From NCBI GenBank assembly GCA_037447655.1, contig JBBHKE010001770.1, positions 62,001 to 126,000 of the forward strand: a DNA stretch of 64,000 nt, given 5' to 3'. This stretch comes from Zygnema cylindricum (lineage: Eukaryota; Streptophyta; Zygnematophyceae; Zygnematales; Zygnemataceae). The position numbers and the translations under genes are program-made. The notes beneath the pieces were generated by a model, which ran no database searches, was not told the origin of the DNA, and worked only from the letters and a program-made list of their open reading frames with translations. Positions 9,120-55,921 of the stretch are shown here, one piece after another; positions within the stretch are counted from its first letter, which is position 1; each line of letters begins with the position of its first letter.

Positions 9120-9124
9120 GTGAC

Positions 9125-35762: not shown

Positions 35763-36094
35763 CTCCTCTTATTTTCTAGTCAATCTTCAATTTCAGACCA
35801 CACTTCTCCGTGCAGAAAATTAGCTTAGGGGAAGGCACAAGTTTGGTCATCATATCTGCTACCATCTCGCTATCTAGACAATACTCTAAACTGATTATTT
35901 TTTTTTCTACTTTCTCTCTAACAAAGCTGAGTCTAATGTCCATGTGTTTGGCTTAAAAATGATGTTTAGGATTGACAAAAATAGCAATTGCTGCCCGATT
36001 ATCACCAAAAATTATGCACACCACTTTTAAGGTGACGAAGCTCACCAAGCAAAGACTTGACCCACATCAATTCTTTTACAGCAGAGCAAGAGGC
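35763..36094 (-). pseudogene. E9 RNase H, C-terminal part
   Basis: It reads the RNase H tail (KELMWVKSLLGELRHLKSGV backwards to the MVADMMTKLVPSPK end) with stops. It is cut at 36094 by E10 and continues at 42551. Confidence 0.82.
36090..36094. repeat. TSD of E10 (GAGGC), left
   Basis: GAGGC here and at 42546-42550. The E9 RNase H sequence rejoins exactly (gcagagcaagaggccatatactcag). Confidence 0.95.
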
Positions 36095-37143
36095 TGAAAC
36101 TCTGAGACCTCCATAAGTCCTCAGAGTGGACAGCTTCCAAAAAGCCTCTAGGATAATCCTGACCCCTTTGTGTTTAAGCAAAAATAACTGCCACCTTGGC
36201 AGACAAAAACTTTGACCAACTTCACCCCTGTGAAGACAAGACTCCCCTGAGTCGATAGCAAAAAGAATCTCTGAATTTGCTCCCCTGAGCAGTAAGTTAT
36301 GGAGGGTCAAAGTTGACCTTTTGTACAGAAGCTCTCTGGGAGAGTGGGTCCTATCTTCTAATTTTTCTAAGTCCTATCTCTCTCACAGACTCTATCTACT
36401 GATGTACGGAACCAATCAGAATTGAGTTCCGTACGCAAAAGTACAGCTGCTGGTATACTTTATGTACGGACATTGTACGACATGGCCAAAATGTCGACAC
36501 ATGTCAAATCCGGATTCGGTGCCATAATCTCCGGAGTTTCCACAATCCAACGGAATTTTGCCACGCGTCATCCGATGTGGCGATGGCCACAAACCGCCGA
36601 AATCTTCCTCCGCGATCTCGGCGCTAATCTCGGCCTTCCGATTAAATTCGGCTTTAATCGTAGCCGTAATAAATACATGCGCGGTATTTGTTTCATTTAC
36701 GAAACAAATGCGCGGTACTGATTTTTGTCCGTACCGTAAGTCGTACATTATATATTACTGGATCTATGTATCCCGTAATTCATTTCAGTTAAATGATTTA
36801 TCGCACTTATACATATTTAAATAAATATCAAACTATATGCTATGTAACACTACTGCTAGACTTAACGGCTAAGGCTACCGGCTATTTCCTATCAGCCGGC
36901 CGGTAGGTACATGGATCAAATCCTGCCGCCGGCACATACCTTTTAATTAAATAAATAAACCCTAACATAAAATTCCCGTAAACCTCAGGATAGCCAAGGT
37001 AGCCATGGCTCTAGCTTCCTCTCCAATTTCTCAGTGACTGCGACAAGTTTGAGAGTTGGAGAGAGAAGTTAGAGATAGACTGCCTCGACTTCTATATTTC
37101 TTTTCAGACCTAGAAAATACTAATTAAACCATTAGTTTCTACA
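36095..37143 (-). repeat. E10 3' LTR (type A, 1049 bp)
   Basis: It pairs with 41497-42545 base for base apart from scattered substitutions. Confidence 0.95.
36858..36944 (+). other. Antisense tRNA-like unit in E10 3' LTR
   Basis: The A box lies in cttaacggctaaggc. An anticodon-arm-like hairpin has stems ccggct and agccgg. The B box is ggatcaaatcc and TTTT is at 36941-36944. Confidence 0.6.
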
Positions 37144-37156
37144 CTCCCCTTATTTT

Positions 37157-38425
37157 CTAGTCAATCTTTAATTTCAGACCACACTTCTCCCTGCAAAAAA
37201 TTTGCTTAGGGGAAGGCACAAGTTTGGTCATCATATCTGCTACCATCTCACTATCTGGTCTGTACTCTAAACTGATTATTTTGTTTTCTACTTTCTCTCT
37301 AACAAAGCTGAGTCTGATGTCCATGTGTTTGGCTTTAAAATGGTGTTTAGGATTGGCAGAAATAGCGATTGCTGCCTGATTATCACAAAATATTTTCTGC
37401 ACACCACTCTTAAGGTGACCAAGCTCACCAAGCAAAGACTTGACCCACATCAATTCTTTTACAGCAGAGCAAGAGGCCATATACTCAGCCTCCATGGTGG
37501 ACTGAGCAATAACCTTTTGCTGTTTGCTACTTCAACAGCAAGCCCCATCACCCACATATAATACATATCCAGAAGTACATCTCCTCATTGGAGCATCACC
37601 ATAACTGGCATCACTCCAAGTAGTGATGTCAGTATTCTCCCCACCCAAATGCAACCATAGATCTCTAGTTCCTACCAAGTATCTAAGGACTCTCTTAGCT
37701 GCCTCCCAATCCTTCTTAGTGGGAGCATTTAGACTTCTACTCAGCACTCCTACAGCTGCAGCTAAATCCGGCCGGGTACAATTCATAAAATAGATTAGAC
37801 TTCCCACTACTTGCCTGTAAGGAATAGTCTGCATGAACTTCTGTTCTTCAGGAGATAATTCCTCGTCTAAGACTATGACTCCTTCTTCCTCACTCCCCTC
37901 ACTTCCCTTCTTCAATTCCATTGGAGTTGTACAACTATTAGCTTTATCCATTTGAAATTTTTCAAGCATGTTCCCTATTGCTTCCTTTTGAGTCAATCTT
38001 ATAATTTTTCTTTTTCGGTCTCTCTCTACTTGAATTCCCAAAATATATTTTGCTTCCCCCATATCCATCATTTCAAATCTCCCCCTAAGATCGGTTTTCA
38101 GTTTATTAATTTTTTCCATTGATTTACTTAAAACAAGCAAATCATCAACATAAATTGCAATAAATATAAAACCTTCCTCATCTTCGAAAACATAGATTGA
38201 GTGATCTGAGCTGATCCGAATATATCCTAGACCGGTAAGAAACTCATCAAGCTTCTTATTCCACTGTCGGGGCGCCTGTTTCAAACCATAAAGAGATTTA
38301 ATCAGCCGGCATACCTTAATCTCCTCTCCTTCTTCCACAAACCCTTCGGGTTGTCGCATGAAGATCTCCTCTTCTAATTCTCCATGCAAAAAGGCTGTTT
38401 TGATGTCCATCTGGTGCACTTCCAT
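37157..38425 (-). pseudogene. E10 RT (palm onward) and RNase H
   Basis: 37532-38425 is open for 297 codons from [20 protein letters not shown] through [14 protein letters not shown] and the intact catalytic YVDDLLVLSKS (about 38133-38156) to TTWSDASYGDAPMRRCTSGY. A TGA in place of Trp then stops it. 37157-37495 completes RNase H (MEAEYMASCSAVKELMWVK, FCDNQAAIAISANPKHHF, MVADMMTKLVPSPK). It is joined to the upstream gag-pol by one frameshift near 38430. Confidence 0.93.
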
Positions 38426-41276
38426 GTCTTTCCGCCGCTGCTAAACTGAGAAGTATGCGGACGGAGGGAAATCTGACCACCGGGGCAAAGGTTTCCTCGT
38501 AGTCAATTCCTTCCTTTTGTGTAAATCCCTTTGCCACTAATCTGGCCTTGTAGCGCTCGATTGTGTTATCTGGGTTCAGTTTTAGTTTGAAAACCCACTT
38601 ACAACCGATTGGTTTTCGGTTAGGTGGACAGTCCACCAGCTCCCAAGTATCGGTTGCCATGATTGAAGCCATCTCCTCATTGATGGCTGTCTTCCACCGG
38701 TTTCTTTCTGGACAAGTCATCGCCTCTCCATAAGTTTGAGGTTCATCTTGATGAGATAGTTTAGTTACCTTGTTATTAACCTGTTTTTCTTGCAGTCTTT
38801 TGCTACTTCTCCTTCCTCCCTCAAAATCTGAGGCCGGAATAGATGGTTCTCGTGGATTCTTTCGAACAAACTCGGCTTCTCCCCTATCCCTTGATTCCGA
38901 ATCAATTTCCACCACGTCTTCCGCTTCGAGTAGAGTTGTCACTGGAGTTTCCACAGCCGAGTCCTTTTCGGTCTGATTTGTTCCTGCAAGAATGTCATCG
39001 TCTCTAAAACCTGGATAGTTAGGAAGCTCAAAGTCATCAGAATTTTCTGACTCAAATCTGATTTTTACTGACTTTGTATATTTGAAGGGATCCACAGACT
39101 TTCCTTCATCCATAACTACTAGATGCTTTACTAAGATTATATCTTCTCTTTTTAGATCATAAACTCTATATCTTTTAACATCTTCATCATATCCTAATAA
39201 GTATCCCGGTTTTCCTTTAGGATCTAGCTTCCAATTGGACCGATCAGTATCTAGACTGAATACTTGACTGCCGAAAACCTTTAAATGAGATAAGTCTGGT
39301 TTCTGGCCTGTCCATCTCTCATAAGGTGTTTGATCTTTTATAGCTGAAGTAAGAACTCTATTTTTGAGGTAATTAGCACAGTTCATTGCTTCTGCCCAAA
39401 ACCTTTTTCCTATCTTCTTATCCGACAACATACTTCTAGCACTATCACTTAGTGTTCTATTTAACCTTTCAGCTACCCCATTCTGTTCAGGATTTTCTGG
39501 CACTGTCTTTTGGTGTTGAACCCCATCTTCCCTCAAAAAATCCTCAAACTGGTTAGAAGTATACTCTCCACCATTGTCACTCCTTACTCTCTTGATTGGA
39601 GTTTCATGGAGTTTTTCGCTCCATGCTTTATATTGTCTAAAACAGTCCTCAGCCTCTGACTTGTTTTTCAAAAAATATACTCGGGAATACCGAGACCAAT
39701 CATCAGTTATAGTCATCATAAATCTCTTCCCCCCCGGTGAGGGCACTCTAGCCGGTCCCCAAATATCTGTGTGTACTAGATCTAGAAGTTTTTCTCCCTT
39801 GTAGGTGGCTGTTTTTGGAAAGGGTAATCTGTGTGCTTTACCTTGAGCACACCCACTACAATCACTTATATCATCACTCTCACTGAACTGAATCCCTTCC
39901 ACCACTCCCATCTTTTTCATCTCTCTTAACTTATCTAGATTCACATGCCCAAGCCTCTTATGCCACATCATAATATCATGAACACCAGCATAATAAAGTT
40001 TCTTCGTTTCATTACTTAAGATCAGCCTAAACATCCCATGGCTACCTTTCTCAGCAATGAAATAGACATCCTCCTCAAAACTAGCAGTAAAGACTCCTTC
40101 CCTAGTGCTAGTGAAAAAACCCTTATCATCTAATACTGATGTAGAGATAAGGTTTTTGTTCAGCTCCGGAATAAACAATACATCGGAGAATGTTAATATG
40201 GATGTCTTTCCTTCTACTAACACTTTCAGATCTACCGATCCTACAAGAGTAGTGGTGACTATCCTCCCATCCCCGTACTCTATCTCTACGGTGGGAATCT
40301 TTCTTATCTTAGTGAACAGGTGTCTATCCTTACACATGTGCATTGAGGCACCTGAATCTATAATCCAGCCTGCTTCACATTTCAATCCACCGTAAGCACA
40401 TTTCTGCCTTCGTGGAATTTCAACCTCAGTTTTCGCCTCCAACTCCTCATCCAAAAGGAGCTCATCGTCCTCGTCCTCGGATTCCGTCTCAAGTACCTGT
40501 GTGACAAGGGCCTTTTTCTTTCCTCTCGGGGTACCACCGGTCTGCCCCTCCTTTAACCGAAGCTCGGTTAGCTTGGTGCACTCTGCCATATAGTGCCCCG
40601 GTTTCTTACAAAAATGACATAAACCTTTGGGAGCCCTTGGTTCGAACTCGCCAACCTGTTTTTTCTGCTCCCTACCCCCATAGTTTCCGACTGGTTTCCG
40701 GGAATCCTTGTTCCTCCAATCGGTCGCTGTTGCCAAGGCTTGGCCACTCTTTCCTCCCCTTCGGATCTCAATCGTATTCTCTCGAACGAGAATCATCCCT
40801 ACCACTGAGTTCCATATCCACCTTGAGTTCGGCAAGTCCTGCACACGGTTGACTATGTTCTCGAACTCATCAGGTAACTTCATTAGTAAACAGTTAACTT
40901 TTTCTTTTTCACTAAAAACTTTACCCGCACTCTCTAGCTCCATGAAGAGTGTAGCAAGCTCATTGCAAAAATCCAACATATTTCCCCCTTTGTATACATA
41001 CTCCTTAACTTTCTGATCAGCCAACTGTTGTTGCTGAATCGTACCACTTCGGTACATCTCTATGAGAGCCATCCAAAGATCGGATGCCCTCTCTACCTGC
41101 AAATGAGGACATGCAAGTCCTTGAGTGAGATGGCGTAGGATGAAGTGCTTTGCCCCCATATTGTTGAAGTCCCAGGTTTCAGTATCATTCTCCTCGTTCC
41201 TCGGAATAGGTGACATGAATGCTAAACCAGTTGCTATTGGTGTGGTCGCCTCCTTCTCCTTTCCTTTGTCCACCAC
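38316..41276 (-). pseudogene. E10 gag-protease-integrase-RT start (986 codons open)
   Basis: This is the longest open frame of the window. Gag blocks [20 protein letters not shown] and [20 protein letters not shown] come first. The zinc knuckle [14 protein letters not shown] is at about 40578-40621. The protease [12 protein letters not shown] is at about 40341-40370. Then come GAG-pre-integrase [20 protein letters not shown] with [16 protein letters not shown], integrase Asp in HTDIWGPA (about 39760), Asp in [10 protein letters not shown] (about 39560-39580) and Glu in [10 protein letters not shown] (about 39460-39480). RT starts [25 protein letters not shown] and is lost at an indel near 38430, after which about 30 out-of-frame residues follow. 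All visible catalytic residues are intact. Confidence 0.95.
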
Positions 41277-41336
41277 CTCTCCTTCCTTTTTTTCCTCCGT
41301 TGAAGGTGAATCCTCTTTCCTGGTGAATCTGCTTCC

Positions 41337-41516
41337 TTAAAACCCTGGAGGAATTCCAAGACTTGATGGACGCCCCAATCGTCCACTCACTATCCCCCAA
41401 AACCTTTTTTCGCATAGAGCTCCTATCATCATACTTTCCCAGTATATGAAGCCAGTTCCATTAAAGATTGGTACCCTAGAGGGTGGGCCCTTTATGTGTA
41501 ACTCTGAGACCTCCAT
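41337..41516 (-). pseudogene. E10 gag N-terminus (60 codons, starts in LTR)
   Basis: From ATG 41516 it reads MEVSELHIKGPPSRVPIFNG and continues to IPPGF, then TAA. It is in the same frame as the 986-codon ORF, so a single nonsense change separates them. The first codons lie in the LTR. Confidence 0.88.
41482..41496 (-). other. E10 primer-binding site, mutated
   Basis: The minus strand reads cataaagggcccacc. The gggcccacc half matches the tRNA-iMet site while the ggttat half has changed. Confidence 0.6.
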
Positions 41517-42545
41517 AAGTCCTCAGAGTGGACAGCTTCTAAGAAGCCTCTAGGATAATCCTGACCCCTTTGTGTTTAAGCAAAAATAACTGCCACCCTG
41601 GCAGACAAAAACACTGACCAACTTCACCCCTGTGAAGAGAAGACTCCCCTGAGTCGATAGCAAAAAGAATCTCTGAATTTGCTCCCCTGAGCAGTAAGTT
41701 ATGGAGGGTCAAAGTTGACCTTTTGTACAGAAGCTCTCTGGGAGAGGGGGTCCTATCTTCTAATTTTTCTAAGTCCTATCTCTCTCACAGACTCTATCTA
41801 CTGATGTACGGAACCAATCAGAATTGAGTTCTGTACGCAAAAGTACAGCTGCCGGTGTACTTTATGTACGGACATTGTACGACATGGCCAAAATGTCGAC
41901 ACATGTCAAATCCGGATTCGGTGCCATAATCTCCGGAGTTTCCACAATCCAACGGAATTTTGCCACGCGTCATCCGATGTGGCGATGGCCACAAACCGCC
42001 GAAATCTTCCTCCGCGATCTCGGCGCTAATCCCGGCCGTCCGATTAAATTCGGCTTTAATCGTAGCCGTAATAAATACATGCGCGGTATTTGTTTCATTT
42101 ACGAAACAAATGCGCGGTACTGATTTTTGTCCGTACCGTAAGTCGTACATTATATATTACTGGATCTATGTATCCCGTAATTCATTTCAGTTAAATGATT
42201 TATCGCACTTATACATATTTAAATAAATATCAAACTATATGCTATGTAACACTACTGCTAGACTTAACGGCTAAGGCTACCGGCTATTTCCTATCAGCCG
42301 GCCGGTAGGTACATGGATCAAATCCTGCCGCCGGCACATACCTTTTAATTAAATAAATAAACCCTAACATAAAATTCCCGTAAACCTCAGGATAGCCAAG
42401 GTAGCCATGGCTCTAGCTTCCTCTCCAATTTCTCAGTGACTGCGACAAGTTTGAGAGTTGGAGAGAGAAGTTAGAGATAGACTGCCTCGACTTCTATATT
42501 TCTTTTCATACCTAGAAAATACTAATAAAACCATTAGTTTCTACA
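41497..42545 (-). repeat. E10 5' LTR (type A, 1049 bp)
   Basis: It holds six GTAC cores in about 80 bp (41807-41883), a CCAAT-type motif, G-box-related motifs, and an inverted repeat (atttgtttc / gaaacaaat, about 42088-42112). A tRNA-like unit lies at 42260-42346 on the plus strand, ending in TTTT. Confidence 0.95.
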
Positions 42546-43133
42546 GAGGCCATATACTCAGCCTCCATGGTGGAATGAGCAATAACCTTTTGATGTTTGC
42601 TACTACAACAACAAGCCCCATCTCTCACATATAATACATATCCAGAAGTACATCTCCTCATCAAAGCATCACCATAACTGCATCACTCCAAGTAGTGATG
42701 TCCGTATTCTCCCCTTTTCTACCTGCAAATAAGGACAGGCAAGTCCTTGAGTAAGATGGCGGAGGATGAAGTGTTTTGCGGCCATACTATTGAAGTCCCA
42801 GATACCAGTATCATTCTCCTTATTCCTTGGAATAGGTGACATGAACGCCGAACCAGTAGCTATTGGTGTGGTCGTCTCCTTCTCCTTTCTTTTGTCCACC
42901 ACCTCTCCTACCTTTGTCTCCTCCGTTGAAGATTGATCTGCTTCTCGAGTGAATCTGCCTATGTAAACCCTGGAGGTATTCTAAGACTGGATGGACGCCT
43001 CACCCGTCCACTCACTATTCCCCAAAACCGTTTCTCACATAGAGCTTCTGTCATCATACTTTCCCAGTATATGAAGCCAGCTCCATTGAATATGGGCACC
43101 CTAGATGGTGGGCCCATAACATGCAACTCTGAG
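42546..43133 (-). pseudogene. E9 RNase H fragment fused to gag N-terminus
   Basis: 42551-42714 is RNase H/RT end (ACC.SSKHQKVIAHSTMEAEYM and TTWSDAVMVML-like sequence). From 42715 it becomes gag ([37 protein letters not shown]). The ATG lies in the LTR at about 43133. About 3.5 kb of gag-pol is missing at the junction. Confidence 0.85.
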
Positions 43134-44195
43134 ACCTCCATAGGACCTGAGAGTAAGCAGCTCACAAGAAGCCTCTAAGATAACCCTGACCCTTTTCTCT
43201 TTCAGCAGGAATAACTACCACCCTGACAAAAATAAACTCTTAGCACCTTCACCCTGTGAAGGCAAGACTCCCCTAAGTCGATAGCAAAAAGAATCTATGA
43301 GTTTGCTCCCCTAAGCTGTAAGTTATGGAGGGTCAAAGTTGACCTTTTGTATAGAAGCTCTGTGGGAGAGAGGGTCCTATCTACCAATTTTTCTAAGTCA
43401 TATCTCTCTCACAAACTCTATCTACTGATGTACGGAACCAATCATATTACTCTTCCGTACATAGAAGTACAGCTGCCGGTGTACTTTTTGTACAGATAAT
43501 GTACGACAAAGCCTAAATGTCGACACGTGGTATGTCCGCATTTGCTCCCTTAATCCCCAGAGACGTCGTGATCCAATGTCATTCTGCCACGTGTCATCCG
43601 ATGTGGCGATGACCGAAAACCGCCGAAATCCTCTACCGTGATCTCGGCATTCATTCCGACCGTCCGATTTAAATGCAGATTAAATCGTAGCCGTAATAAA
43701 TACTTGCGCGGTATTCGTTTCACTATCGAAACAAATGCGCGGTATTTGTTTCTTGTCCAAACATTAATCCGTACTTTTACATAACCAAATCTATGTATCT
43801 TGTAAATAGTTTCCGTTAAATGAATTTGTTAGCGTAGAAATGTTTATATAATTATCAAACCATATATAATTTAACTTTGTCATAGACTAAATGGATAGAG
43901 CTACCGGCTACTAGCAGCTCTGATGGCCGGTAGGTACCAGAATCAAATTTTGGTTCTGACAACTCAACTTTTAGTAAATTAGTAAATCAACTAATTTACT
44001 ACTGTAAGTCAACTAATCTACTACCCGTAAATCTCACGATAGCATAGGCAGCCATGGCTCTAGCTTCATATCTGACTTTCAGTGACTGCAACAAGGGTGG
44101 GAGTTGAAGAGAGAAGTTAGAGGCAGACTGCCTTGGCTTCTTTTTGTATTTTTTTTTAGACGTAGAAAATACTAAACTAACCATCAATTTCTACA
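43122..44195 (-). repeat. E9 5' LTR (type A, 1074 bp)
   Basis: It pairs with 34688-35762. Confidence 0.9.
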
Positions 44196-44200
44196 ACATG

Positions 44201-44370
44201 ATTCTTGAAAGCACATCCACGGTGCCGAATATTGTGATTGGACGGCTAACATCTGCCGCCGACAACTGTTGACGAGGCATGACTAGATCACAATAACTTT
44301 TCTCTATTTTCGTGATCAGATTGTCGGTTTAAATATTTGTTAGAACAGAATTTTATTTGTAGTGAATTAG
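44201..44370. other. Diverged sequence upstream of solo B LTR
   Basis: It is related at its right end to about 46205-46262 (taaatattt, then ttagtgtaga). It is part of the diverged repeat described at 45185-45480. Confidence 0.35.
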
Positions 44371-44375
44371 TTGAT

Positions 44376-45179
44376 TGCAATTCTGTGTCCCCCATTGGAT
44401 CACAAAATTCAGGAAGCCTATAGATAGATTTTGGCTAGCCCTATTTCAATTAAGATCACTACTACCCAAGCACGCAACTAGACAATCTGACTACACCCTT
44501 GTGCAGTCTATACTCCCTTGAGTCCACAGCAAAAAGAATCTCTGAAAATGCCCAACGAGGCAATTAGTTTTGAAGTGGCAAAGATGACAATATTTATACA
44601 AGCTTGTTGGGAGAGAGGCGACTACCTCCTCAATCCTCTAAGTCGTAATCCCCTCTCACAACCCATATCTACTGTTGTACGAACCAATCAGAGGATTTAA
44701 CAATGCAAAAAGGTACTAAGGCCGATGTATTTTTTGTATAGCCTGTGTATGACAAGGCCATGGAGTACACATTTGTCTTCTTCGACTCGTTCTCATGTTC
44801 TCCAGGATTTCCTCTTCTTAATATTAACCTTGCCACGTGTCTCCAGGTCATGTCACGTCAAAAAACCGCCAAGATGCCATTACGAGATCTCAGCAATGAT
44901 GTGGGCCGTCGGATTTAAACCGGCTTTAAACGCTCGCCGTTCAAAAACAAATGTCCTGCCGAACTCAACCTTTTTGTTGAGAGTGACTTAGGTCACTCTT
45001 AAGTCCTGCCTATGGAGCTGAGGCAGCCATGGCTCCACCACCCTCTCTCTCCTTCAGTGACTACAACAAGTATTGGGGCTAGAGAGAGAAGGTGGAGGCA
45101 CGCTGCCTATGCTTCCTTTTAGCTATTTTAACTAATTAAGACCTAGAAAATACCTACCCTAACGCTAGTGATTTTAACA
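44376..45179 (-). repeat. Solo type B LTR (804 bp, internally deleted)
   Basis: It runs from tgcaattctgtg to gattttaaca. TTGAT lies on both sides (44371-44375 and 45180-45184). It is shorter than the 1034-bp E2 LTRs because the zone around the tRNA-like unit is missing near 44950. Confidence 0.9.
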
Positions 45180-45184
45180 TTGAT

Positions 45185-45561
45185 TAGTGTAGAATGCGTG
45201 ATTTATGACATGCCTTGTGTACAAAGGTATACTCATAGTATTTTTGTTAGACATACGGTTGGAATGCCTCCGAACAGTTTAGTGTAGCTTCAGGGTAAAA
45301 GTAGGACTTTGTAAATTTTGGAGTTTATGAACAAATGATATGAAAACTGGACACTCAATTTTATGTAATTTCATCTCTGAATATCTGATTGATCTGTGAG
45401 CAGAATTAAGTGAAATTTTGTGTGTATGATCATTTGTATGTTATCTACATCGTGGTAGATTTGTTAGACTATTGTGTTTGTGGATTCCAAGGTATTATTT
45501 GTCAAAGTTGATGTTCTGTCATAGGTCTTTGTGCAAGCTTCCTCTCTTGATTTGTTCTACA
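45185..45561 (+). repeat. Diverged repeat copy S1 (possible gypsy LTR/leader)
   Basis: It shares order and wording with 46262-46570: ttagtgtaga, acggttggaatgcctccgaacag, taggactt, tttcatctctgaatatctg, gaaattttgtgtgt. It is followed at 45562 by an ATG with a gag-like N-terminus. Confidence 0.5.
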
Positions 45562-45780
45562 ATGACTACTACTGCCTCTTCTTCGTATTCAATACTAGCA
45601 GTTGTGTCACAACAACAATAACTGCTACAAAAGCTAGTGGAGCTAGAACAACAGACCACAATGGGTGGAGATGAGGATGATCCCATGGGTTGGGAAATGG
45701 AGCCTCTAAAGGCTCATCATGCTCGGACATTTCTGTCCGGAGCCTGGAACGTCGAAATAGGGGATGTTGTTTTGAAAAGT
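45562..45780 (+). pseudogene. Gag-like N-terminal fragment after S1
   Basis: The frame MTTTASSSYSILAVVSQQQ has a stop, then LLQKLVELEQQTTMGGDEDD and AHHARTFLSGAWNVEIGD. The Gln-rich helix and Asp/Glu stretch resemble retroelement gag starts, but there is no named domain. It ends where new non-coding sequence begins. Confidence 0.35.
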
Positions 45781-46785
45781 TAGTTTCGTGCGTGCGTGTT
45801 GTTTTGTGCGTACAAAATATTTCTTAGGCACAGTACGCTTCTCTAATATTATCTTGATTTATTGTGGAGCTTCGAATTGTTTTGGGAATTGGGGGAGTAA
45901 TGGTACTAATTGTTTTGGGATGTACATTATTATTTGAGTGGCGCGAACAAAACGTAAGGAAAGGTACGGAATATGTAAATGTACGACGGATCGCGAAGCG
46001 ATCCGATCTGGAATGTTTTTGAAGAAGTAAGCCGCCGGTACGGACTAATTTGGATGGAGTGATGTCATTTCGCCAAGTGGATTTTGGTGATTATGCTTCG
46101 CGACATCAAGGGTGCCGAAGAAGAGCTACGGAAGGCGGCGTCGTCATTTTGGTGAGGGACGCGAAATCGCGTCCATCACATGATATTTATTTTGGAAGGT
46201 CTAGATTTATTTGACGGAATTCGTAAGACTTTTAAATATTTACCAATGTTTTGTCCTGTGTATTATTTATTAGTGTAGATTTTAAGTACACTCACATTAA
46301 TTGAGGTAGTTTATTGATTACGTACGGCTGGTATGCCTTCGTACAGTAAGTAGTAAGCTGTAGTGTATATTTGTAGGACTTAGTCATTTTTAGACTAAGG
46401 AACTTTTTGACAAAAACTGTTTCAGCTCCTTTTTGGGAATTTCATCTGAGAATTGCTCTCACTTATATTGGCAGAATTTTCTGAAATTTTGCATGTGTGT
46501 TTCTCCTTGTATTCGAACATTTTTGGCATTTTTGCACGCCTATTGTGTGTCAGGTTTGCTTGGGGATTCATTGTGAAGTTGGTCAGATTTATCAAAGTTC
46601 TGGCAGGCTGTTTTTCTCCAACTTTGACTGGGTGATGTGGGAATTATGGCTGGTATATTTATATGAAAATTTGTGGGAATACTTAGTGGCATAGAACCTA
46701 TCTGCTTGTGTAGTTTTATCTTGGTTTGGTAATTTTGTAGAATTCTGAGTGGAATCAAAGTAGGCTGTTTTGGGGTAGTAGGTGG
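45781..46785 (+). repeat. Non-coding stretch with diverged repeat copy S2
   Basis: 46262-46570 is the second copy of S1. A short inverted repeat, ggatcgcgaagcgatcc, lies near 45990. It is followed directly by coding sequence of the gypsy pol, so it may contain that element's LTR end or leader. The primer site is not identified. Confidence 0.4.
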
Positions 46786-47540
46786 TGCTTCCGAGGGTAC
46801 ATTCATGGCTGAAAATGGCTATGAACAACAAGGGACAGTCGCAGGCAACTGCTCTCTACTACGTTCTAACAGAGAAAGGACAAAAAGTCGATGGAACCAA
46901 AGGACCACAGCCGCAAAGCCACCGGTCCTTTATACTTCACACTGCGAGTCGTCCTTTTGAATAGTGACATTGGGCTGGGCCTAAAACCGACCCATCCGCC
47001 TCCTCCGGCTCCAAAGAAAATTCCTCCCGGTTTCAAAAATTACAAGAAACCACAGCCGAAAAAGGGTGCTTTGACCACTGAAACAGATAAGGAATGGTTC
47101 GACCGATACTTGGCAAAAAAACCACCAACAGATCCACCAGTTACACCTCCAATAGGAAATTCTGACGCAGAGAGTGAGGAAGAAGGGGGTGGGAACAAGA
47201 GAAATCGAAAGACGACGACTCACCCATTTCATCGCCAAAGCTCACCCTCCTTCCTCTTAACTAGCAGTCATGCTGGTACGACACCTGATGCCCTACGCAC
47301 TGACTCACGTCAAAACGCTAGCTTCCTCCCACAATTTGCCCCAAAAAATCCTCATTCAGGCACTAGGGGAAGAGATTCATACCAGGAGGGAAAAGGTCGC
47401 GTTGGCAGAACCAACCAAGACAGTATTTATGTCTGCGAAACTGAAAACTTCTATGGCGGATAGAGATTATAAGGCCTTGTTAGTGGCTCTTATTCTTAAC
47501 AGGACAGGTAATTTTAAACTTCATGGATACGGCATGTATT
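46786..47540 (+). pseudogene. Gypsy element: region upstream of protease
   Basis: It opens MAMNNKGQSQATALYYVLTE. Overlapping frames follow, including 46891-47463 with a Pro/Lys-rich linker (KPTHPPPPAPKKIPPGFKNY), KEWFDRYLAKKPPTDPPVTP and an acidic ESEEEGGGNK. It ends with EEIHTRREKVALAEPTKTVF, which commonly precedes gypsy proteases. The frame changes at least once near 47270-47300. Confidence 0.5.
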
Positions 47541-47960
47541 AAGATGCAGTGGTGGATATTGGAGCTCTCCCAGACCTTATAACAACATGAGCATTACAGC
47601 AAATGCGTGAGGAACTCAAGCCAAAAATCAGTCCAAGTGACATATGCTTGAGTACGGTCAACAATGGGAGTCAACTAGTATATGGCATCATTAAAGCAAT
47701 GGAAATCGAATTTGCGAATGACGCACGCCAACAAGTACAAATTCAATTTCCCTTCTTCGTGGTGGAAGGTAAGCAATTTGAAATTATGTTGGGCATGGCT
47801 ACGTGGACAAGGTTGAACATGGAGTTGACCATATGGAAGGACCAATTTACAATTTCAGACCCGGAGGATCCTGAGGCCACCAAAGTGGTGGTCCCCTTAG
47901 ATTTATGGAACCGGAGAAAAACAATTGTTCCAGTGTCTGGATGCTATCCTGTGTACTAAG
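47541..47960 (+). pseudogene. Gypsy aspartic protease
   Basis: DAVVDIGALPDLITT at 47543-47587 is the active-site loop, with the canonical D-T/S-G-A reading D-I-G-A (47555-47566). 47603-47959 is open with MREELKPKISPSDICLSTVN, GIIKAMEIEFAND and FFVVEGKQFEIMLGMATWTR, the usual Ile-Leu-Gly flap region of retropepsins. Two stops precede the open part. Confidence 0.75.
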
Positions 47961-48120
47961 CATCAACCCCTTCAAAGGTGTTCGAAGACTCCACCGATAT
48001 CGTTGTTTCCATCTAGCGATTCCCCATTTCCAAGCGGTGGGATAGGGAGTATCAGAACAGATTGGTACATTGGCCACACTTTGGCGGAAAGTGGACAAGA
48101 GACTTGCCGCCATATCACCT

Positions 48121-49069
48121 AGGACAGCAAAGTTCATCCGGTCAGAACTTCCAGCGGTCCCTAACAAAGGGAAGGACTTCAACCGACAGGTGGTGTCACT
48201 AGAAATCCCGCCCTCACGACTCTGAATTTTATCGCTATTCTCCGACATTAATGCCGCCCTGGAAGCCATTTTCAAGCAACCTGGATACCAAGTAGAAACG
48301 CACTCGAAAGTCAAGATTGACCTGGACACCCGTGCAGTCAGTGGGTATCGACTGCAACAGCTGCACCAACTTTACTCGCAGCAACTCCCGGTGTCTACCA
48401 TGTCTAACTCTCAACGCACGCTTCCCCAGAATGTGGACAACATCATGGATTCAAATTTGCAGAAGCTTAGAAAGGTAGATCTGGTGGTCGCTCGATGGCC
48501 TTGCCAGGGGTATTCGTTAGCAAGACACGGCACGGGACACCAAGATGACTGTAGTAGAACATTCTTTCAGATGATTCGACTGATAACACGGTTACAGAAA
48601 CGCCAGGACACGCCAGTGGGGTATGTCTTGGAAAATGTTCACCCCACAAATGATAAAAGGAAACAGGTGGTCAACAGTTAGAACCAAGTGACAAAGGTCT
48701 TGGGGACTCCCATAGTGTTTTATGTAGCTCAGGTTGTATCAAGAGCCCAGAGAGTTTGGGCTTATTGGACCAACTTGGTTCTTATTCCCATCTTCAACAA
48801 CTATTAAATACGCATGTTCCGAATCCCAACATCACACTTCAACAGATCCTCTGTAAAGGACAAATGCCACCCGTGTGACCACAGCCGACCGAGCACCCTT
48901 TTTCTGTTGCAATAAACCCGAAAATCCACGGAGGGCCCTACCGACCCTGATATATTCCCCAAACTGCCATGCTTACCGGAAAGGCGCATCAGGGATGATC
49001 TTTGACAGTACAGCTCCTACGTCAACAGCACCGAGTATTGGGGAACGGGAACAAGCAATGGGATTTTAA
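48121..49069 (+). pseudogene. C5-cytosine DNA methyltransferase domain inside gypsy pol
   Basis: Conserved C5-methyltransferase motifs appear in canonical order. Motif I is ILSLFSDINAALEAIF (from 48226), with the usual G-x-G changed to D-I-N. Motif II-III like KIDLDTRAVSGYRLQQLH follows. Motif IV is DLVVARWPCQGYSLARHG, catalytic Cys at 48502-48504. Motif VI is YVLENV (ENV 48631-48639). Motif VIII is VVSRAQRVWAYWTNL (48733-48777). Motif IX is RALPTLIYSPNCHAYRKG (48932-48985). Motif X is PSIGEREQAMGF (49031-49066). Stops at 48223, 48679 and 48805 and two frameshifts around 48790-48875 break it. The order is not the permuted one of plant DRM enzymes, and the spacing recalls DNMT3. It lies between protease and RT and decays at the same rate as they do, so it was part of the element. 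Ancestrally it would have methylated cytosine in DNA. Confidence 0.87.
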
Positions 49070-49489
49070 GCGAAAACCACAGCAACACCAAGGGTCTCAA
49101 CCTCAAAAGGGTGTAGTTAAATCGGGCAAAGTATGGATTTGAAAGCAATTTCAAGGGTGCTGAAACATTCTCTTGCATTCTCCAGCCTCCATTCTCCAAA
49201 ATCACGGGCAACATACCTTCAAGCTCCAAAATTGTTGGTCGTGCAAGCTACTCTACAGCTTGAAGGGGAGAGAGAGGAAAGAAGGGGAAAATTCACCAAA
49301 TTACACTTAGATAGCACACTGAACCCCTCAGTGGGGGGGAGCGGAGGCTCACAACAGGGCAGCTTAGGGGAAGTTGTCAACACCAACGTTAGCAGTCGAG
49401 CAAGGGATAGATCCATAGGTAGAGGTGGAATTCGACTACTCCCTCTAAGGTAGGCCACCGGAAGCATTAGCGGCAGTGGAACCCGGGAA
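49070..49489 (+). other. Low-complexity linker between methyltransferase and RT
   Basis: Frames are Ser/Gly/Arg-rich (LQLEGEREERRGKFTK, GGSGGSQQGSLGE). No domain is recognised. Confidence 0.4.
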
Positions 49490-50441
49490 GATCGATTGGA
49501 CTCTAGGGGAACAGCTAGACCCACACCAGAAAGCCCCACTCTCCAAGTTGTTAAGGGGAGAAAGGGCAGGTGTTCTCCTGGTCTGACACAGATGTAGGGA
49601 TCTATAACGGGACCCTTTTTTAGATTGACTTGACCGACAAGACGACAACTGTTTGGTAGAAACAATACCCTCTCAGTTTCAAGGAGAAGGAGTTCATCAC
49701 CACAAAGGTGCATACTTTGGTGAGCGTCGGGCGGGTGCAAGAGAGTACAAGGCTAAATGGGTTTTCCTCTCCAACAATGTTCCCGCCAAAGAAAGACTCC
49801 TTCGAGAAAACTGTAGATTTCCGGATGTGTGGGGACTATCATATGCTCAACGCGGCAACTGTCTCCGACCGTTATCCAATGCCCACCCCGGAAGAGATCT
49901 TTGACTCTCTTGCTAAGGATACCATTTATTCTACGTTGGATATGAAGAATGGATTCCACCAGATTGCAATGGAGCCAAAGCACCGAGAGAGTACTGTTTT
50001 TGGGCAGGATCCAGGTTGTATGAATGGATGTACATGCCATTTGGCCTCATAAATGCACCAGCCAAATTCCAACGGGCAATGGACGAGGCCCTCCGGGGAA
50101 TCGATTGCATACGATGTTTCATCCACGATGTGATCATTTTCTCCAAGACCTTCCACGAACACTTAGAGCATATATAGATTGTCCTCTTGGCTTTCCAAGC
50201 AGCGGGATGGAGCTGTCACCCAGAGAAGGGCATTTTTTGGGTGCACATAATCAATTATCTGGGTCATGAGGTGACATCTGGGACAGTGTGTCCCCACATG
50301 ATTAAGGTGGCAGCTCTTGACGCCCTTCCACCCCCGCAGGACATTTCGGCTCATCGCACTTTCCTGGGCCTGGCCAACTATTACCGGAGGTTTATTCCCG
50401 AATTTAGTAGCCACGCCCAGCCATTGAATCACTTATTATGA
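49490..50441 (+). pseudogene. Gypsy reverse transcriptase
   Basis: Across several frames it reads WTLGEQLDPHQKAPLSKLL, SDTDVGIYNGT, then 49708-50040 FSSPTMFPPKKDSFEKTVDF, CGDYHMLNAATVSDRYPMPT and YSTLDMKNGFHQIAMEPKHR (first Asp). MPFGLINAPAKFQRAMDEAL follows. The catalytic Y-x-D-D reads FIHD (50118-50129). 50187-50441 gives CHPEKGIFWVHIINYLGHEV and FLGLANYYRRFIPEFSSHAQ. The domain order and the YYRRFIP block are diagnostic of Ty3/gypsy. It is not functional. Confidence 0.88.
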
Positions 50442-50559
50442 AAGGACCAGGAGTGACGGTGGGCAAAAAAACAGCAAACTGCTTTCCAATTCCTGAAAGA
50501 TTCTCTTAAGCAACATCTTGTGCTCTAGATGCCCAATCACCAGCGGCCTTTCCTCTATT

Positions 50560-50960
50560 ATACTGATTGAAGCAGGTTCCGATTGAAGCAGTTTTGGCTC
50601 AATTGGACAATGCATGGGCTTAGTACATAGTGGCCTAGGCAAACTGGAGTAATAACAAGGCCGTGGGGAATTACAGCAGTTACCATGTGGAATTACTCGC
50701 CGCAGTGTGGGCCATCCACCATTTCAGGCCTTACCTCTATGGAGTACACTTCACCCTTATTACAGATCACCAACCTCTCAAATGGATAACGGAGAATAGT
50801 AAGTTGACCTGCAAGCTAGCCAGATGGGTTCTCATCTTGCAGGAATATCATTTCAGTACATCCAAAGAGCCGGAGAGATCCATGGGAATGCAGACGGACT
50901 CAACAAGAATCCGGACCCTTCCACCCGAGATGATGAGGACCTTGAGCTCAGCTTAGGACT
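50560..50960 (+). pseudogene. Gypsy RNase H
   Basis: 50663-50956 has NYSSYHVELLAAVWAIHHFR with the catalytic Glu, LYGVHFTLITDHQPLKWITE with the Asp-His, and LARWVLILQEYHFSTSKEP. The first Asp region is scrambled by stops. It follows RT as in all gypsy elements. Confidence 0.85.
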
Positions 50961-51149
50961 TATCCTGGCTTTCTCTACCTTTATTTGGCTGCCTCGAACT
51001 GGAGAAGAACATTTAAAATTTTGCAGCGGACGTGGAGGGGCAGGCTCCCATTCGAGCCGGCCGCAAGGATATTTGGAATGACCCCAATTCCCTTCACTCC
51101 ATCCAAAAAGGTTCCCCTTTTCCCCACTTGGTCAGAATTCACTTGTCCC

Positions 51150-52060
51150 GTATTCAGACTGTGATGGCGCCGTATGAATGAGACTAAGGCATTCTTCTCA
51201 GGAAATGGGCCGACGGGACGTGGAATGTGGTTCCTCTTCTGGCAAATCTTGAAACCCTCATTATTCGTCTTCACCAGAAAAGCAGGCACTTCGGACAAAA
51301 GCGACCACCTCATTGGTCACAAGGTCGTACTGGTGGCATGGGTTGTGGGCCCAGGTTAATCGTGTGGTGCAGACGTGCCCTTCTTCTGATCGGGTGAAAG
51401 TGACTTTTGCCTGAAAGGGTGGAACTTCACTCACTCCCCATCCGAGGGATGTTTTAGAGATGGTCACTGGATCTTCTGAGACAACTTCTAACAAGCCAAA
51501 GGGGAAACCGTTTTGTCTTGGTAATGATTGAACACTTCCCCAAATGGATCAAATTGGTGGTTCTTCTCGAAAAGAGTCCAAAGCAATCACGGAGGCATTC
51601 TTGTAGAGAGTGTTGTCTGAATTTGAAGCACCGCCAAGTTTTGACTGATCAGGGGTCCGATTTTGCCGCAGAATTTTCTAACCTTCTTGAGAAGTGCCAC
51701 ATTGACCAATGGTTGACGAGCAGAGACCACCCCCAAGCCGACGGCTTGGCGGAGAGGTTCGTAGATACATTGAAACGGTCAGTACACAAATATACAGTGA
51801 AATATGATTTGGGGGAAAAGGAAATACGGGTGCCTTCGATTTCCATGGGATACAAATTCAGTGGGCACGCCTCCCTCCATTTCTATAACCGTTACTTCAT
51901 TCTCTTTGGCCGACATCCCATCCTACCTAGAGTTGCATTGGCTCAGGCGGCTATATTTCTGGAAATAAACAACCGGGGGACTGTGGAGAAGCTGATTGCC
52001 GACAAGGCCAAGGTATTTCACTGGGAAATACCTCTAGCTATGGACAATTTTTAGGCTGCT
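51150..52060 (+). pseudogene. Gypsy integrase
   Basis: The zinc-binding N-terminus survives as WHGLWAQVNRVVQTCPSSDR (51337-51396), with the second Cys changed to Ser. The core begins VMIEHFPKWIKLVVL, with the first catalytic Asp changed to Glu. It continues RQVLTDQGSDFAAEFSNLLE (second Asp, about 51640-51690) and HPQADGLAERFVDTLKRSVH (Glu, about 51735-51790). 51518-52054 is open for 178 codons. I see no chromodomain after it. A PHD-like module follows instead. Confidence 0.87.
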
Positions 52061-52194
52061 CAGCACAGGGATCACCTTTGGTATTCTCAACGCCAAAGCG
52101 GCAACTATGTCCCTTGGCAACGACGACCATGCCCGAGGATTTTGTGTATCGTATGCAACAGAAAAAGGACACTTTGGACATTTCGGCCTGACGG

Positions 52195-52517
52195 GTGTGT
52201 TTAAAAGTAGAGGAGGTCTTTAACAAAGGGGTTCAGACCTTGGAAGGGAAAGATGGCTGCAAAATTAAGGAGAAACAGATCAATGTGGCTCCTTGCCATC
52301 TACAAAGACTAGAGGACAAACCCACTTTCCACCTAACTAACATTGTTGATCTGCCCTCCAGTTCCTCTTCCTGCAATGCACCCTCCCACCTTGCCTCATG
52401 TTGGTGTGTGAACAGTGTCACCACGGGTGGCATGACTAATGTCAACCGCTAACTTGTGAGCCTCGCTCTCAACCTGCAAATCCGTGGTTCTGTGGGGACT
52501 GCAAACTTGGCGGCTAA
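52195..52517 (+). pseudogene. PHD-finger-like module at the gypsy pol C-terminus
   Basis: In the frame containing 52398-52517 the translation is MLVCEQCHHGWHD, a stop, CQPLTCEPRSQPANPWFCGDCKLGG, then TAA. C-x2-C (52407-52418), x4-H (52431-52433), x2-C (52440-52442), and W-x-C-x2-C (52485-52502) are the third to eighth ligands and conserved Trp of a C4HC3 PHD finger. The first Cys pair is not clear and probably lies across a frameshift in the preceding Ser-rich stretch. PHD fingers read histone H3 tails, so this could replace a chromodomain as a targeting module. Confidence 0.65.
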
Positions 52518-52529
52518 TTTGTCTTATCC

Positions 52530-52958
52530 TCTTAGTCACGCGAGACTATAAGGGGAGGTGAATTTGGGGGGGATGGGGTACTTTTCTTTTTCACTTGCTC
52601 CCTCATTATTACCCATGAATATCCGAGGGGGGGGGGAGGGACAAAGAAGGGCATGGTCATGCATCCGGGGAGTGCATCATCATTTGGGGTGGATTGTAAG
52701 TTTCTCATGCACACCTCCTCAGACATCTCACTTAAACCTCTCGGTTCCTAGGCACGCTCGAAACCTCTCGAGCTCGTGAGCATTCTCGGTACATTTCAAC
52801 TCACAAGATTTTCGGGGCCTCATTTCACCATGTACAAACCCCACCGTACAGGAAAATGGAGGACAACCAACTGGATCTGATCCTTCTATTGTCACCAAGG
52901 AGCACAACACACTTTAGTTCACCTCAAACAATGGTCGAACGGCGGAGTTAGTTCGTTA
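52530..52958 (+). repeat. Post-pol region with repeat R1 (candidate gypsy 3' LTR start)
   Basis: ataaggggagg (about 52548-52558) looks like a polypurine tract, followed by tgaatttgggggg. The block 52556-52756 recurs at 55021-55228. The rest is non-coding. Confidence 0.5.
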
Positions 52959-52963
52959 CAACG

Positions 52964-54011
52964 TGAAACTCTGAGACCTCCATAAGCCCTCAGAGTGGAC
53001 TGCTTCCAAGAATCCTCTAGGATGACCCTGACCCTTTTGTGTTTCAGCAAAAATAACTGCCACCCTGATAGACAAAAACTCTGACCAACTTCAACCCTAT
53101 GAAGACAAGACTCCCCTGAGTCGATAGCAAAAAGAATCTCTGAATTTGCTCCCCTGAGCAGTAAGTTATGGAGGGTCAAAGTTGACCTTTTGTACAGAAG
53201 CTCTCTGGGAGAGAGGGTCCTATCTCCTAATTTTTCTAAGTCCTATCTCTCTCACAGACTCTATCTACTGATGTACGGAACCAATCAGAATACAGTTCCG
53301 TACGCAAAAGTACAGCTGCCGGTATACTTTATGTACATTGTACGACATGGCCTAAATGTCCACACGTGGAATATCCGGATTCGCTCCTTTAATCCTCGGA
53401 GATGCCGCGCTCCAATGTTACATCGCCACGTGTCATCCGATGTGGCGATGCCCACAAACCGCGGAATTCTCCTTCCGCGATCTCGGCGCTAATTCCGGCT
53501 GTCCGATTAAACTCGTATTTGATCGTAGCCGTAATAAATACATGCGCGCTATTTGTTTCGCTTACGAAATCTATGCGCGGTATTGATTCTTTATCTGTAC
53601 CGCAATTCGTACTTTTACATACCAGATCTATGTATCCCGTTAACAATTATAGTTAAATGATTTATCCTACGAATTAATGTGTAATTAATTATCGTACTAT
53701 ATAATACGTAAGACTACTTCTAGACTTAATGGCTAAGGCTACCGGCTATCTACTATCTGTCGGTCGGCAAGTACTAGGATCAAATCCTGTGGCCGGCATA
53801 TACCTTTTAGTAAATAATCTCCTCTCTAACGATTATAAATTTCCCGTAATCCTCAGGATAGCCTAGGTAGCCATGGCTCTAGCTACCTCTCCAATTTCTC
53901 AGTGACTGCGACAAGTTTGAGAGTTTGGAGAGAGAAGTTAGAGGTAGACTTCATCGGCTTCTTTATTTCTATTCAGACCTAAAAAATACTTTAAAACCAT
54001 TAATTTCTACA
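52964..54011 (-). repeat. Solo type A LTR (1048 bp), minus strand
   Basis: It runs from tgaaactctgagacc to taatttctaca, flanked by CAACG at 52959-52963 and 54012-54016. A tRNA-like unit lies at 53727-53807 (cttaatggctaaggc, aggatcaaatcctg, TTTT). It interrupts the region downstream of the gypsy pol. Confidence 0.94.
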
Positions 54012-54016
54012 CAACG

Positions 54017-55017
54017 GTGGCAGCTCCATGATAGGGCTTTTGTTTAATATAGCTCTAGCATAGGGTATATTTTGGAAATTCATGTAACCTTTGAGATGGT
54101 CATGTAGATTATGTTGTTAGCCGTCAATAGGATGTTAAATTCAAGACCAACAGACGGATAGAGCATTTATGACGTTGATTAGAATTTAGGCGGTTTCATA
54201 TCAATTCAAGACTTTGTTGCCCTTTAGTGTACCATAAAAAGACCTCTGGCTGCAAATCCAGCTAGAACTAGTCGCCAAACTTTTTGCCCTGAGAGTTTTG
54301 TCTTATGTCAGTACGATAACAATTGTTGGCCGCTGATTCGCTTCATGGATTGCTTTGACTTTGGCACCTGCAGTAGGAAAACTTTGGTTGTATAAGGCAC
54401 TTGGGGTCGAAGGTTGTATAAGGCACTTGGGGTCGAAGGAGACAGGTTGCATTTTTGGTACTGTCTCCTAAGGAAATCCCCAAAGAATCTTATCAATCTT
54501 TCTATTGACGAATTGTTGTATTGTTTCGTGGACTCTATTGCCATTTTTGTTTTGGATTGTCTTTAATGGAAATCGTAGCCCAGGTGGGTGGTTGGCACTA
54601 TCATCTCTTTCGGCGGTTTGGACTTTAGCTATTTGAAACTGTGAAGAGTCGAGTCGGATTCGTACAGCGGAACCGAGGAGTGAGGGAGAATCATATCTAT
54701 CTTTGGGGCAATTTGGAGAGGTTTTCATCTTTTAAGTTTTGTCATCGTTGCACTCTGGGTTATGTGAGCTTCCTTCACCATTTTCATTGATTTCTATCTT
54801 TATTTCTATTCTTTGAGGCAAGGCGATATTGTTTAATCTGAAAGAGCCAATTTTTATTGTTTCTATATTTCTACGTGAGAGGTATTTGCACACTGTTGTG
54901 GTTGTCTTTGGTTTCTGTCCGGAGTTCTTGTGGGTCGGATTTGACGACCCGCATTCCCTTTTCTATTCGGTGGAGAGTGCTCAGGGGTGTAGCATTTAGT
55001 GGGCTTGCGGTAGATCA
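54017..55017. other. Non-coding DNA downstream of gypsy pol
   Basis: There is no convincing coding sequence. A 26-bp unit (ggttgtataaggcacttggg plus gtcgaa) is tandemly duplicated at 54386-54411 and 54412-54437. If R1 and R2 mark LTR starts, this is the rest of one gypsy LTR. Confidence 0.4.
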
Positions 55018-55020: not shown

Positions 55021-55228
55021 CAAAATTTGGGGGGGTACGTGGTACTTTTCTTTTTCACTTGCTCCCTCGTTATTACCCATAAATATCCGAGGGGGGGAGG
55101 GACAGAGAAGGGCATGGTCACGCATCTGGCGGGCATCAACATTTCGGGTGGATTGCAGGTCTCTCATACACAGCTCCTCGGACATCTCACCTAAACCTCC
55201 CGGTTCCCAAGCACGCTCGACACTACGT
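55021..55228 (+). repeat. Repeat R2 (second copy of R1)
   Basis: It shares ggtacttttctttttcactt, tatccgaggggggg, ggcatggtca, ctcggacatctcac and caagcacgctcga with 52556-52756. It is cut at about 55228 by a copia LTR fragment. Confidence 0.75.
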
Positions 55229-55921
55229 ATCTATTTCTCGTTAAACGAATTAGTCTACGTGTAATTGTTTAAGTACTTCTCAAACGCTATGTATATAACA
55301 CTAATCTTAGGCTTAACGAACAAGGCTAATGGCTACGGGTGAATTTTGTAGAAATAAAAGGTTATTTTAGTATTTTCTAGGTTTGCAAAATGCAGAAAAG
55401 AAGCCGAGGCAGTCTGCCTCTAACTTCTCTCTTCAGCTCCCACACTTGTCGTAGTCACTGAAGGTTGAAGAGGGAGCTAGAGCCATGGCTGCCTATGCTG
55501 ATTAGAGATAGAGTTACGGGTTGTAGATTTTGGTAGATTTACTAAAATGTAAATTGAACCTCCCGGTTCCCAAGCACGCTCGACACTACGTATCTATTTC
55601 TCGTTAAACGAATTAGTCTACGTGTAATTGTTTAAGTACTTCTCAAACGCTATGTATATAACACTAATCTTCGGCTTAACGAACAAGGCTAATGGCTACG
55701 GGTGAATTTTGTAGAAATAAAAGGTTATTTTAGTATTTTCTAGGTTTGCAAAATGCAGAAAAGAAGCCGAGGCAGTCTGCCTCTAACTTCTCTCTTCAGC
55801 TCCCACACTTGTCGTAGTCACTGAAGGTTGAAGAGGGAGCTAGAGCCATGGCTGCCTATGCTGATTAGAGATAGAGTTACGGGTTGTAGATTTTGGTAGA
55901 TTTACTAAAATGTAAATTGAC
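55196..55921. repeat. 363-bp tandem duplication spanning a copia LTR start
   Basis: 55196-55558 and 55559-55921 are nearly identical. I see one difference, cttagg versus cttcgg. The unit holds the end of R2, a fragment of a minus-strand type A LTR, and the first ~211 bp of a plus-strand LTR starting TGTAGAAATAAAAGG at 55347 and 55710. Confidence 0.9.

Follow-up and report, generated by a model that had tools for sequence, protein, structure and literature searches.

A decayed Ty3/gypsy element in Zygnema cylindricum and its family, which carries a DNMT3-type methyltransferase and a PHD finger in Pol

Introduction

Retroelements are normally targets of DNA methylation. DIRS elements are characterized by split direct repeats and a tyrosine recombinase, and chromodomain-bearing gypsy elements (chromoviruses) carry a histone-reader module behind the integrase.

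The closest described system is KnitGypsy-Dnmt3 of Klebsormidium nitens, in which a DNMT3 lies in the Pol of an LTR Gypsy element and has a Ka/Ks < 0.2 (de Mendoza et al. 2018, PMC5890265). According to the text of the same paper, retrotransposon DNMTs methylate CGs de novo, and SymbioLINE-Dnmt gave no DNA methylation in yeast; RNA methylation is raised there as a possibility. SymbioDIRS-Dnmt3 of Symbiodinium is described there with a DNMT3-type methyltransferase (MTase) in Pol, an A-coding-B-A-B repeat plan and two domain orders; it is given as an independent capture and has a tyrosine recombinase, not a DDE integrase. DNMT3 in retrotransposons is cited for streptophytes and dinoflagellates in a 2025 survey (PMC12344493), and, according to a passage of PMC6338049, land plants such as tracheophytes have no methylase-encoding transposons.

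Here, a 64,000-nucleotide stretch of the Zygnema cylindricum genome (contig JBBHKE010001770.1; hereafter the window) was analyzed. It almost certainly contains a dead member of a large Ty3/gypsy family with a DNMT3-type MTase captured into Pol and a PHD finger behind the integrase. The core idea, a DNMT3 MTase in a gypsy Pol, is already published as KnitGypsy-Dnmt3 (2018), and the Zygnema family resembles that element, as described in PMC5890265, in its intron-less DNMT3-type MTase in gypsy Pol and in purifying selection. Beyond the published core are the PHD finger, a conserved in-frame UAG, two positions of the MTase in Pol, homologues in Marchantia and Closterium, a mismatch between reverse transcriptase (RT) and MTase, and the integration anatomy. 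The first-pass annotation of this DNA had no PHD finger, in-frame UAG or split repeats. Titles and abstract openings of open-licence PMC papers contained none on a PHD finger with gypsy or MTase, on split repeats with a gypsy integrase or on a Marchantia gypsy MTase; the PHD finger, the split-repeat integration anatomy and the Marchantia homologues cannot on that account be called unpublished.

Results

The window copy

The first-pass annotation had a cytosine MTase flanked by a retropepsin and a gypsy RT, all on one strand. This order was correct, both by Pfam profile search and by alignment to L013, an open-frame relative from the same genome. The profile PF00145 matched the window frame 48226-48681 above its cut-off (E 1e-8; 35.4 bits against a Pfam cut-off of 22; 151-aa piece). 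The range first given for the MTase, 48121-49069, was right as to place; the enzyme extends over 48196-49201, past that end. The other window frames matched RNase H (8e-21), RT (2e-6, slightly under cut-off) and rve (E 0.0065, under cut-off).

Positions 46837-52761 aligned to L013 with 80.9% identity over 6002 columns. When aligned to L013, the window MTase contained four in-frame stops and three indels, two of them frame-shifting. The element, a retrotransposon of plant or algal type, is present as a decayed copy. It is split by a Copia-rich block (34455-45608) and by a 1084-bp insert, and its right end reaches 55223 (Table 1). No match to its left repeat (A1) was found within the 64-kb window. 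The 716-aa frame of L013 that matches the gag-side part contained no Pfam family, and an Rfam search of the window gave no match. Two 363-bp tandem copies, approximately 99% identical, lie at 55194-55920 and overlap the right end of the element. A 20-bp unit with GCGCG forms a tandem array at window positions 29976-30146.

C-to-T decay of the window copy was 0.21 in CG, 0.16 in CHG and 0.10 in CHH contexts. As the Copia controls were mixed, this bias shows no element-specific methylation.

Table 1. Features of the element and of its insertions, in window positions.
Feature	Position	Strand	Basis
Gag-side part, 5'	32247-32548 + 32884-34454	+	Matches L013 contig 23258-23559 (76% DNA identity) and 23972-25545 (78%)
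Later block splitting the element	34455-45608		Holds Copia frames and Copia LTR-like repeats; element similarity returns at 45609
Short element piece	45609-45752	+	86% to L013 contig 25531-25673
1084-bp insert	45753-46836		Unlike the L013 element; no second copy within the window
Pol region	46837-52761	+	Alignment to L013
Protease frame, decayed	47178-48013	+	Maps to L013 frame 3477-4313 (Asp_protease_2 E 2e-4, below cut-off)
In-frame TAG, protease/MTase boundary	48014-48016	+	TAG in 24/25 aligned copies
DNMT3-type C5-cytosine methyltransferase, decayed	48196-49201	+	PF00145 match and L013 mapping
Reverse transcriptase core, decayed	49771-50294	+	Pfam and L013 mapping
RNase H, decayed	50460-50851	+	RT_RNaseH 8e-21 on 50639-50956 and L013 mapping
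Integrase zinc-binding and core, decayed	51221-51742	+	Sub-cut-off rve and L013 mapping
PHD finger, decayed	52372-52505	+	Maps to L013 pol residues 1473-1517
Pol stop TAA	52515-52517	+	
Repeat B1	52561-52764	+	86% to 55024-55223
Repeat A2, two pieces	52768-52965 + 54017-55010	+	Matches L013 contig 20614-20812 (74%) and 20810-21788 (76%)
Copia solo LTR inside A2	52966-54016		Full-length copies at 75-87% elsewhere in the window; flanked by CAACG duplication
Repeat B2 (right terminus of element)	55024-55223	+	Similarity to B1

Class and motifs of the methyltransferase

Judged by profile and predicted-fold rankings, the MTase is of the DNMT3 class and unpermuted. The family profile matched DNMT3A (3e-29), DRM2 (2.6e-14), HhaI (1e-11) and DNMT2 (1e-6); DNMT1 was not matched at 1e-5. 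Against solved structures, the L013 MTase matched DNMT3A best (E 1.5e-14). The fold of P0047, a homologue 49% identical to L013 over 87%, was predicted with a pLDDT of 91, and all 50 of the listed PDB matches to this predicted fold were DNMT3A, 3B or 3C, making DNMT3A/DNMT3B the best matches by sequence and by fold. The motif order is canonical, unlike that of the permuted DRM. Pfam scans of the L009, L010, L012 and L013 frames contained no ADD or PWWP domain; these domains of DNMT3A/DNMT3B are missing from the four frames, and a PHD finger is present instead, far off at the C-terminus of Pol. Algal DNMT3s likewise lack companion domains, as stated in part of the 2025 survey (PMC12344493).

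The catalytic Cys, the Glu of ENV and the Arg of motif VIII were invariant in an alignment of 19 family sequences. In the window copy, the Cys and ENV can still be read and the Arg is gone: the motif VIII first reported as QRVWAYW is present, with W at the position of the family-invariant Arg (HRVRAYW). The stretch GEREQAMGF, initially called motif X, is motif IX by the present reading; motif X is IGQSMDLKAISRVL, which starts at 49121, outside the range first annotated. Motif IV reads WPCQG or WECQG in the family and SPCND in DNMT3A. Group B reads GWECQG where other copies read GWPCQG, with Glu in place of the Pro that usually precedes the catalytic Cys. The form GWECQG was found in L009, L010, L011, L014-L018, L022 and L026; the Pro is also lost in P0027, P0036 and P0064.

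The loss of this Pro from group B would fit a domain that is kept without methylating element DNA, acting instead on RNA (such as the transcript of the element itself) or binding nucleic acid within Pol, as would the yeast result for SymbioLINE-Dnmt in the text of PMC5890265. Such a role is unlikely, given the invariance of Cys, Glu and Arg in the 19 sequences and an MTase closest to DNMT3, not to DNMT2.

Copy number, domain plan and selection

The 353-Mb assembly (2689 contigs) was searched with profile, protein and DNA queries. PF00145 matched in at least 123 places covering both subfamilies, all over cut-off (123 scored of 782 candidates). With 120 of 1875 candidates scored, the L013 MTase protein gave at least 121 matches at 64 to 100% identity; the L013 RT gave at least 150, with 150 of 3029 scored. 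The DNA of 47560-49100 had at least 39 other genomic places at 79 to 83% identity; of its 629 candidates, 40 were scored, counting the window copy.

Relative to Ty3/gypsy elements, the order of protease, RT, RNase H and DDE integrase is kept (the protease being sub-cut-off), and the MTase is added between protease and RT. L009, of group B, has a single 2395-aa frame reading CCHC-protease-MTase-RT-RNase H-integrase-PHD, in which the MTase, RT, RNase H, integrase and PHD (E 1.5e-9) exceeded their Pfam cut-offs and the CCHC and protease matches fell under theirs. In group A, the group of the window copy, the frames of L012 (1525 aa) and L013 (1520 aa) extend from the MTase to the PHD and are preceded by a protease frame closed by TAG. 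The first-pass annotation had raised the possibility of protease, MTase and RT in one ORF. This arrangement was found in L009; in the window's subfamily, a UAG lies in frame between protease and MTase. The PHD match was above the Pfam cut-off in L009 and L017 and below it in L012 and L013, the group-A PHD finger being degenerate and sub-cut-off.

In seven younger group-A copies, the median dN/dS was 0.25 for the MTase and 0.23 for RT; RNase H, integrase and the PHD-bearing C-terminal part gave 0.20, 0.18 and 0.17, and the protease and the spacer 0.36 each. Pairs with dS <=0.01 or with too few sites were left out. All 25 group-A copies gave 0.24 for the MTase and 0.48 for the spacer, and the window MTase against that of L013 gave 0.17. 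Since the MTase value is close to that of RT, the enzyme has been kept as the replication enzymes are.

MTase was found upstream in 27 of the best 40 of 150 scored RT copies, among the matches listed, and the spacing from MTase to RT was 547 to 625 nt in 22 of the 27; against shorter match lists, the same count was 15/40. The other 13 RT copies had no MTase among the matches listed, and relatives lacking the domain, named earlier as a point against the element's own enzyme, may be among them. In contig C961 (71851-72375, minus strand), an RT 96% identical to that of L013 lies in a 5743-aa open frame with no MTase nearby among the matches listed.

A host DNMT3 gene could in principle have landed by chance in a gypsy element and decayed along with it, and the window copy itself, taken singly, is dead. 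This explanation can scarcely be credited: it is refuted by many selected copies, with at least 120 places, open pol frames and dN/dS like that of RT, and it does not account for the constant MTase-RT spacing or for homologues that occupy the corresponding position in other species. Given the many copies, open frames and selection, the domain is not a lone host-gene accident. The earlier proposal of an enzyme belonging to the element is borne out by the copy number, by open-frame relatives with MTase-RT-RNase H-integrase and by purifying selection as on RT, and the unique host-gene insertion considered alongside it is contradicted by the places, at least 120, that score as MTase in the same genome.

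RTs 94 to 98% identical to that of L013 were paired with MTases that were 89 to 96% identical (13 copies) or just 72 to 75% identical (10 copies); this set of 27 copies includes L013 itself and three without scored identity. Near-identical RTs with diverged MTases are read as a sign that elements have exchanged their MTase parts; faster change of the MTase may be an alternative reading.

Relatives in other organisms and two domain orders

A search of 5.8 billion proteins returned 43 relatives in polyprotein-sized proteins. Those named were from K. nitens (one, KFL_009030040), Closterium (two, NIES-53 and NIES-54), Marchantia polymorpha (four) and EukProt (one), and many of the 43 came from metagenome contigs. 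Together with three from the Zygnema genome, 46 proteins were compared. The MTase (MT) follows RT or RNase H in the orders RT-RH-MT-IN-PHD (13 proteins), RH-MT-IN-PHD (2) and RT-RH-MT-IN (1), where RH is RNase H and IN integrase; it precedes RT in MT-RT-RH-IN-PHD (5), MT-RT-RH-IN (4), MT-RT-RH (1) and MT-RT (2). The remainder were MT-IN-PHD (6) and MT alone (12). A PHD match was present in 26 of the 31 proteins reaching the integrase and was very weak in P0002 and P0045. For P0002, no relative in viral contigs was confirmed; an alignment-based search gave 12 loci at 27 to 61% identity over short stretches.

For the trees, proteins with short MTase matches were dropped, and the six MT-IN-PHD fragments, in which RT was not seen, were labeled as having the MTase after RT. 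In the MTase tree (44 rows, 33 labeled), each domain order forms one side of a branch with 99/99 support. With each order a single clade, there was either one move of the MTase or two captures from the same source. The two orders are not clades in the integrase tree, which requires three changes and leaves 13 of 27 inner branches open.

The K. nitens protein P0038 (KFL_009030040; 42% identity over 68%) has the order MT-RT-RH-IN and groups with the rows in which the MTase precedes RT. It is a partial protein with no PHD match in it, and the main text of PMC5890265 contains no word beginning with PHD. The UAG, 4-bp target duplications, palindromic joint and second gypsy domain order found in the Zygnema family are not among the KnitGypsy-Dnmt3 features in the passages of PMC5890265 compared.

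Chromoviruses carry a chromodomain where this family has a PHD finger; P0036 has both, with RT-RH-MTase-IN followed by a PHD finger and a chromodomain (PF00385). In the four Marchantia polymorpha proteins (P0006, P0008, P0016, P0020), the MTase lies close to the C-terminus and RT was not matched, and in P0006 a protease-like stretch and CCHC knuckles can be seen by eye. To judge from these protein sequences, Pol may break after the MTase in Marchantia.

A conserved UAG before the methyltransferase

For the UAG alignment, 34 loci were given and 27 matched; L006 and L008 were dropped as duplicates of L013 and L028, leaving 25 group-A copies. TAG was found at the same place in 24 of the 25, the window included, usually in the context ATC TAG CAA TTC; the next commonest in-frame stop was shared by 4/25. 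Conservation of the UAG codon is unexceptional, 16% of 714 codons being equally or better conserved. Purifying selection persists past the UAG, which means that either ribosomes get beyond this codon or the frame is accessed in another way. Of these sequences, readthrough is the simplest explanation. CARYYA is a readthrough motif, from which the context CAATTC departs in its final base. RNA folding of five stretches around the UAG gave none that was significant (z -0.1 to -1.1); four of these cover the stop and that of L030 does not.

In the window's subfamily, the MTase and later Pol domains would probably be made only by ribosomal readthrough of the UAG past the protease, which would hold them scarce relative to the protease product.

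Split repeats and integration

Complete copies were read for two loci, both of group B. L009 has the plan A1 (931 bp)-coding-B1 (242 bp)-A2-B2, with A1/A2 100% and B1/B2 99.6% identical and TTGG flanks. L015 has the same plan, with A of 1475 bp, 99.5% identical, followed by B1, A2 and B2, and CCCT flanks. No blastn match was found between the A and B repeats of L015 and those of L009. Both copies, the sole complete ones read, have TG...CA outer ends and 4-bp target duplications. The ordinary gypsy plan has a full LTR at both ends; here, A stands at the left and B-A-B at the right. A tRNA-type primer site (TGG start) directly after A1 is absent in L009 and L015. Group A was seen in pieces, as B1-A2-B2 in the window and A-coding-B in L013. 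In L012, L013 and L023, the first B runs directly into unrelated sequence, and L018 also ends after the first B; no clear target duplication was found for the incomplete copies L013 and L018. In L026, inverted arms (1-889 and 8245-9134, 97% identical) flank an MTase-bearing copy and match the L009 repeat A in opposite orientations.

At the B1/A2 joint, the perfect palindrome GACA-GC-TGTC was found in L009, L010 and L015 and, in group A, in L025; L028 is one base off. The split direct repeats are common to this family and DIRS elements; in the frames scanned, no tyrosine recombinase family was matched, and rve and Integrase_H2C2 were. The pairing of split repeats with a DDE integrase, together with the palindromic joint and the target duplications, suggests an unusual integration route.

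The A-coding-B-A-B plan might instead be a leftover of tandem or nested elements with ordinary LTRs, with no mechanism behind it, and the group-A copies, seen only in pieces, are compatible with this. We regard it as quite improbable, since two complete copies with different repeat sequences share the same plan, 4-bp flanks and the same GC joint, and the plan is shown for K. nitens in a figure legend of PMC5890265, where KnitGypsy-Dnmt3 combines DIRS-like repeats with gypsy domains.

For an unusual integration route, the following model is proposed. The G-run directly before B1 would serve as the usual plus-strand primer, in which case reverse transcription would yield a B-A terminal repeat. 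The integrase would cut the inner palindromic B-GC-A joint, perhaps in a circular molecule, giving A-coding-B-A-B. Cutting of both strands after CA would leave exactly the shared bases GC, and a two-repeat circle cut at one B-A joint would give A-coding-B-A-B. Cutting at the inner joint is possible, if rather unlikely as stated, and the model does not account for L012, L013, L018 and L023, in which the element stops at the first B.

The near identity of the repeats (99.5 to 100%) indicates recent insertions. A family this numerous, with recent insertions, speaks against an enzyme that methylates new copies to limit expansion of the element, or invading DNA to protect the host. Roles of that kind are proposed in general terms in parts of PMC5890265 and PMC6338049; for this family, such a role is improbable.

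Discussion

The explanation that best covers the observations combines a captured MTase and PHD finger, methylation of self or target DNA, UAG readthrough and inner-joint integration, and as a whole it is probable. For the functional part, a tentative proposal, less likely to hold than the whole, is that the MTase would accompany RT and integrase within the particle and would methylate new element DNA, or the chromatin of the insertion site, de novo. By analogy, the PHD finger would read a histone tail and guide the integrase-MTase complex, somewhat as ADD does for DNMT3. Concealment of the element through methylation of its DNA copies, or adjustment of host silencing, had been suggested with reserve in the first-pass annotation as what the enzyme may serve. 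It is doubtful, more so than either the functional proposal or the inner-joint cut, that these parts make up a retrotransposition route of the family's own, with palindromic inner-joint insertion from circular or tandem-repeat DNA, a DNMT3 writer with a PHD reader, and a dose set by the UAG.

A whole retroelement family here keeps a methylation writer under selection, together with a chromatin reader. The combination of split repeats with a DDE integrase makes an unexplained insertion mechanism testable. The Marchantia MTase proteins bear on the absence from land plants claimed in the passage of PMC6338049. The two domain orders and the mismatch between RT and MTase point to modular evolution, and the homologues in a liverwort, in charophytes and in metagenomes suggest an old, successful lineage, not the curiosity of one alga.
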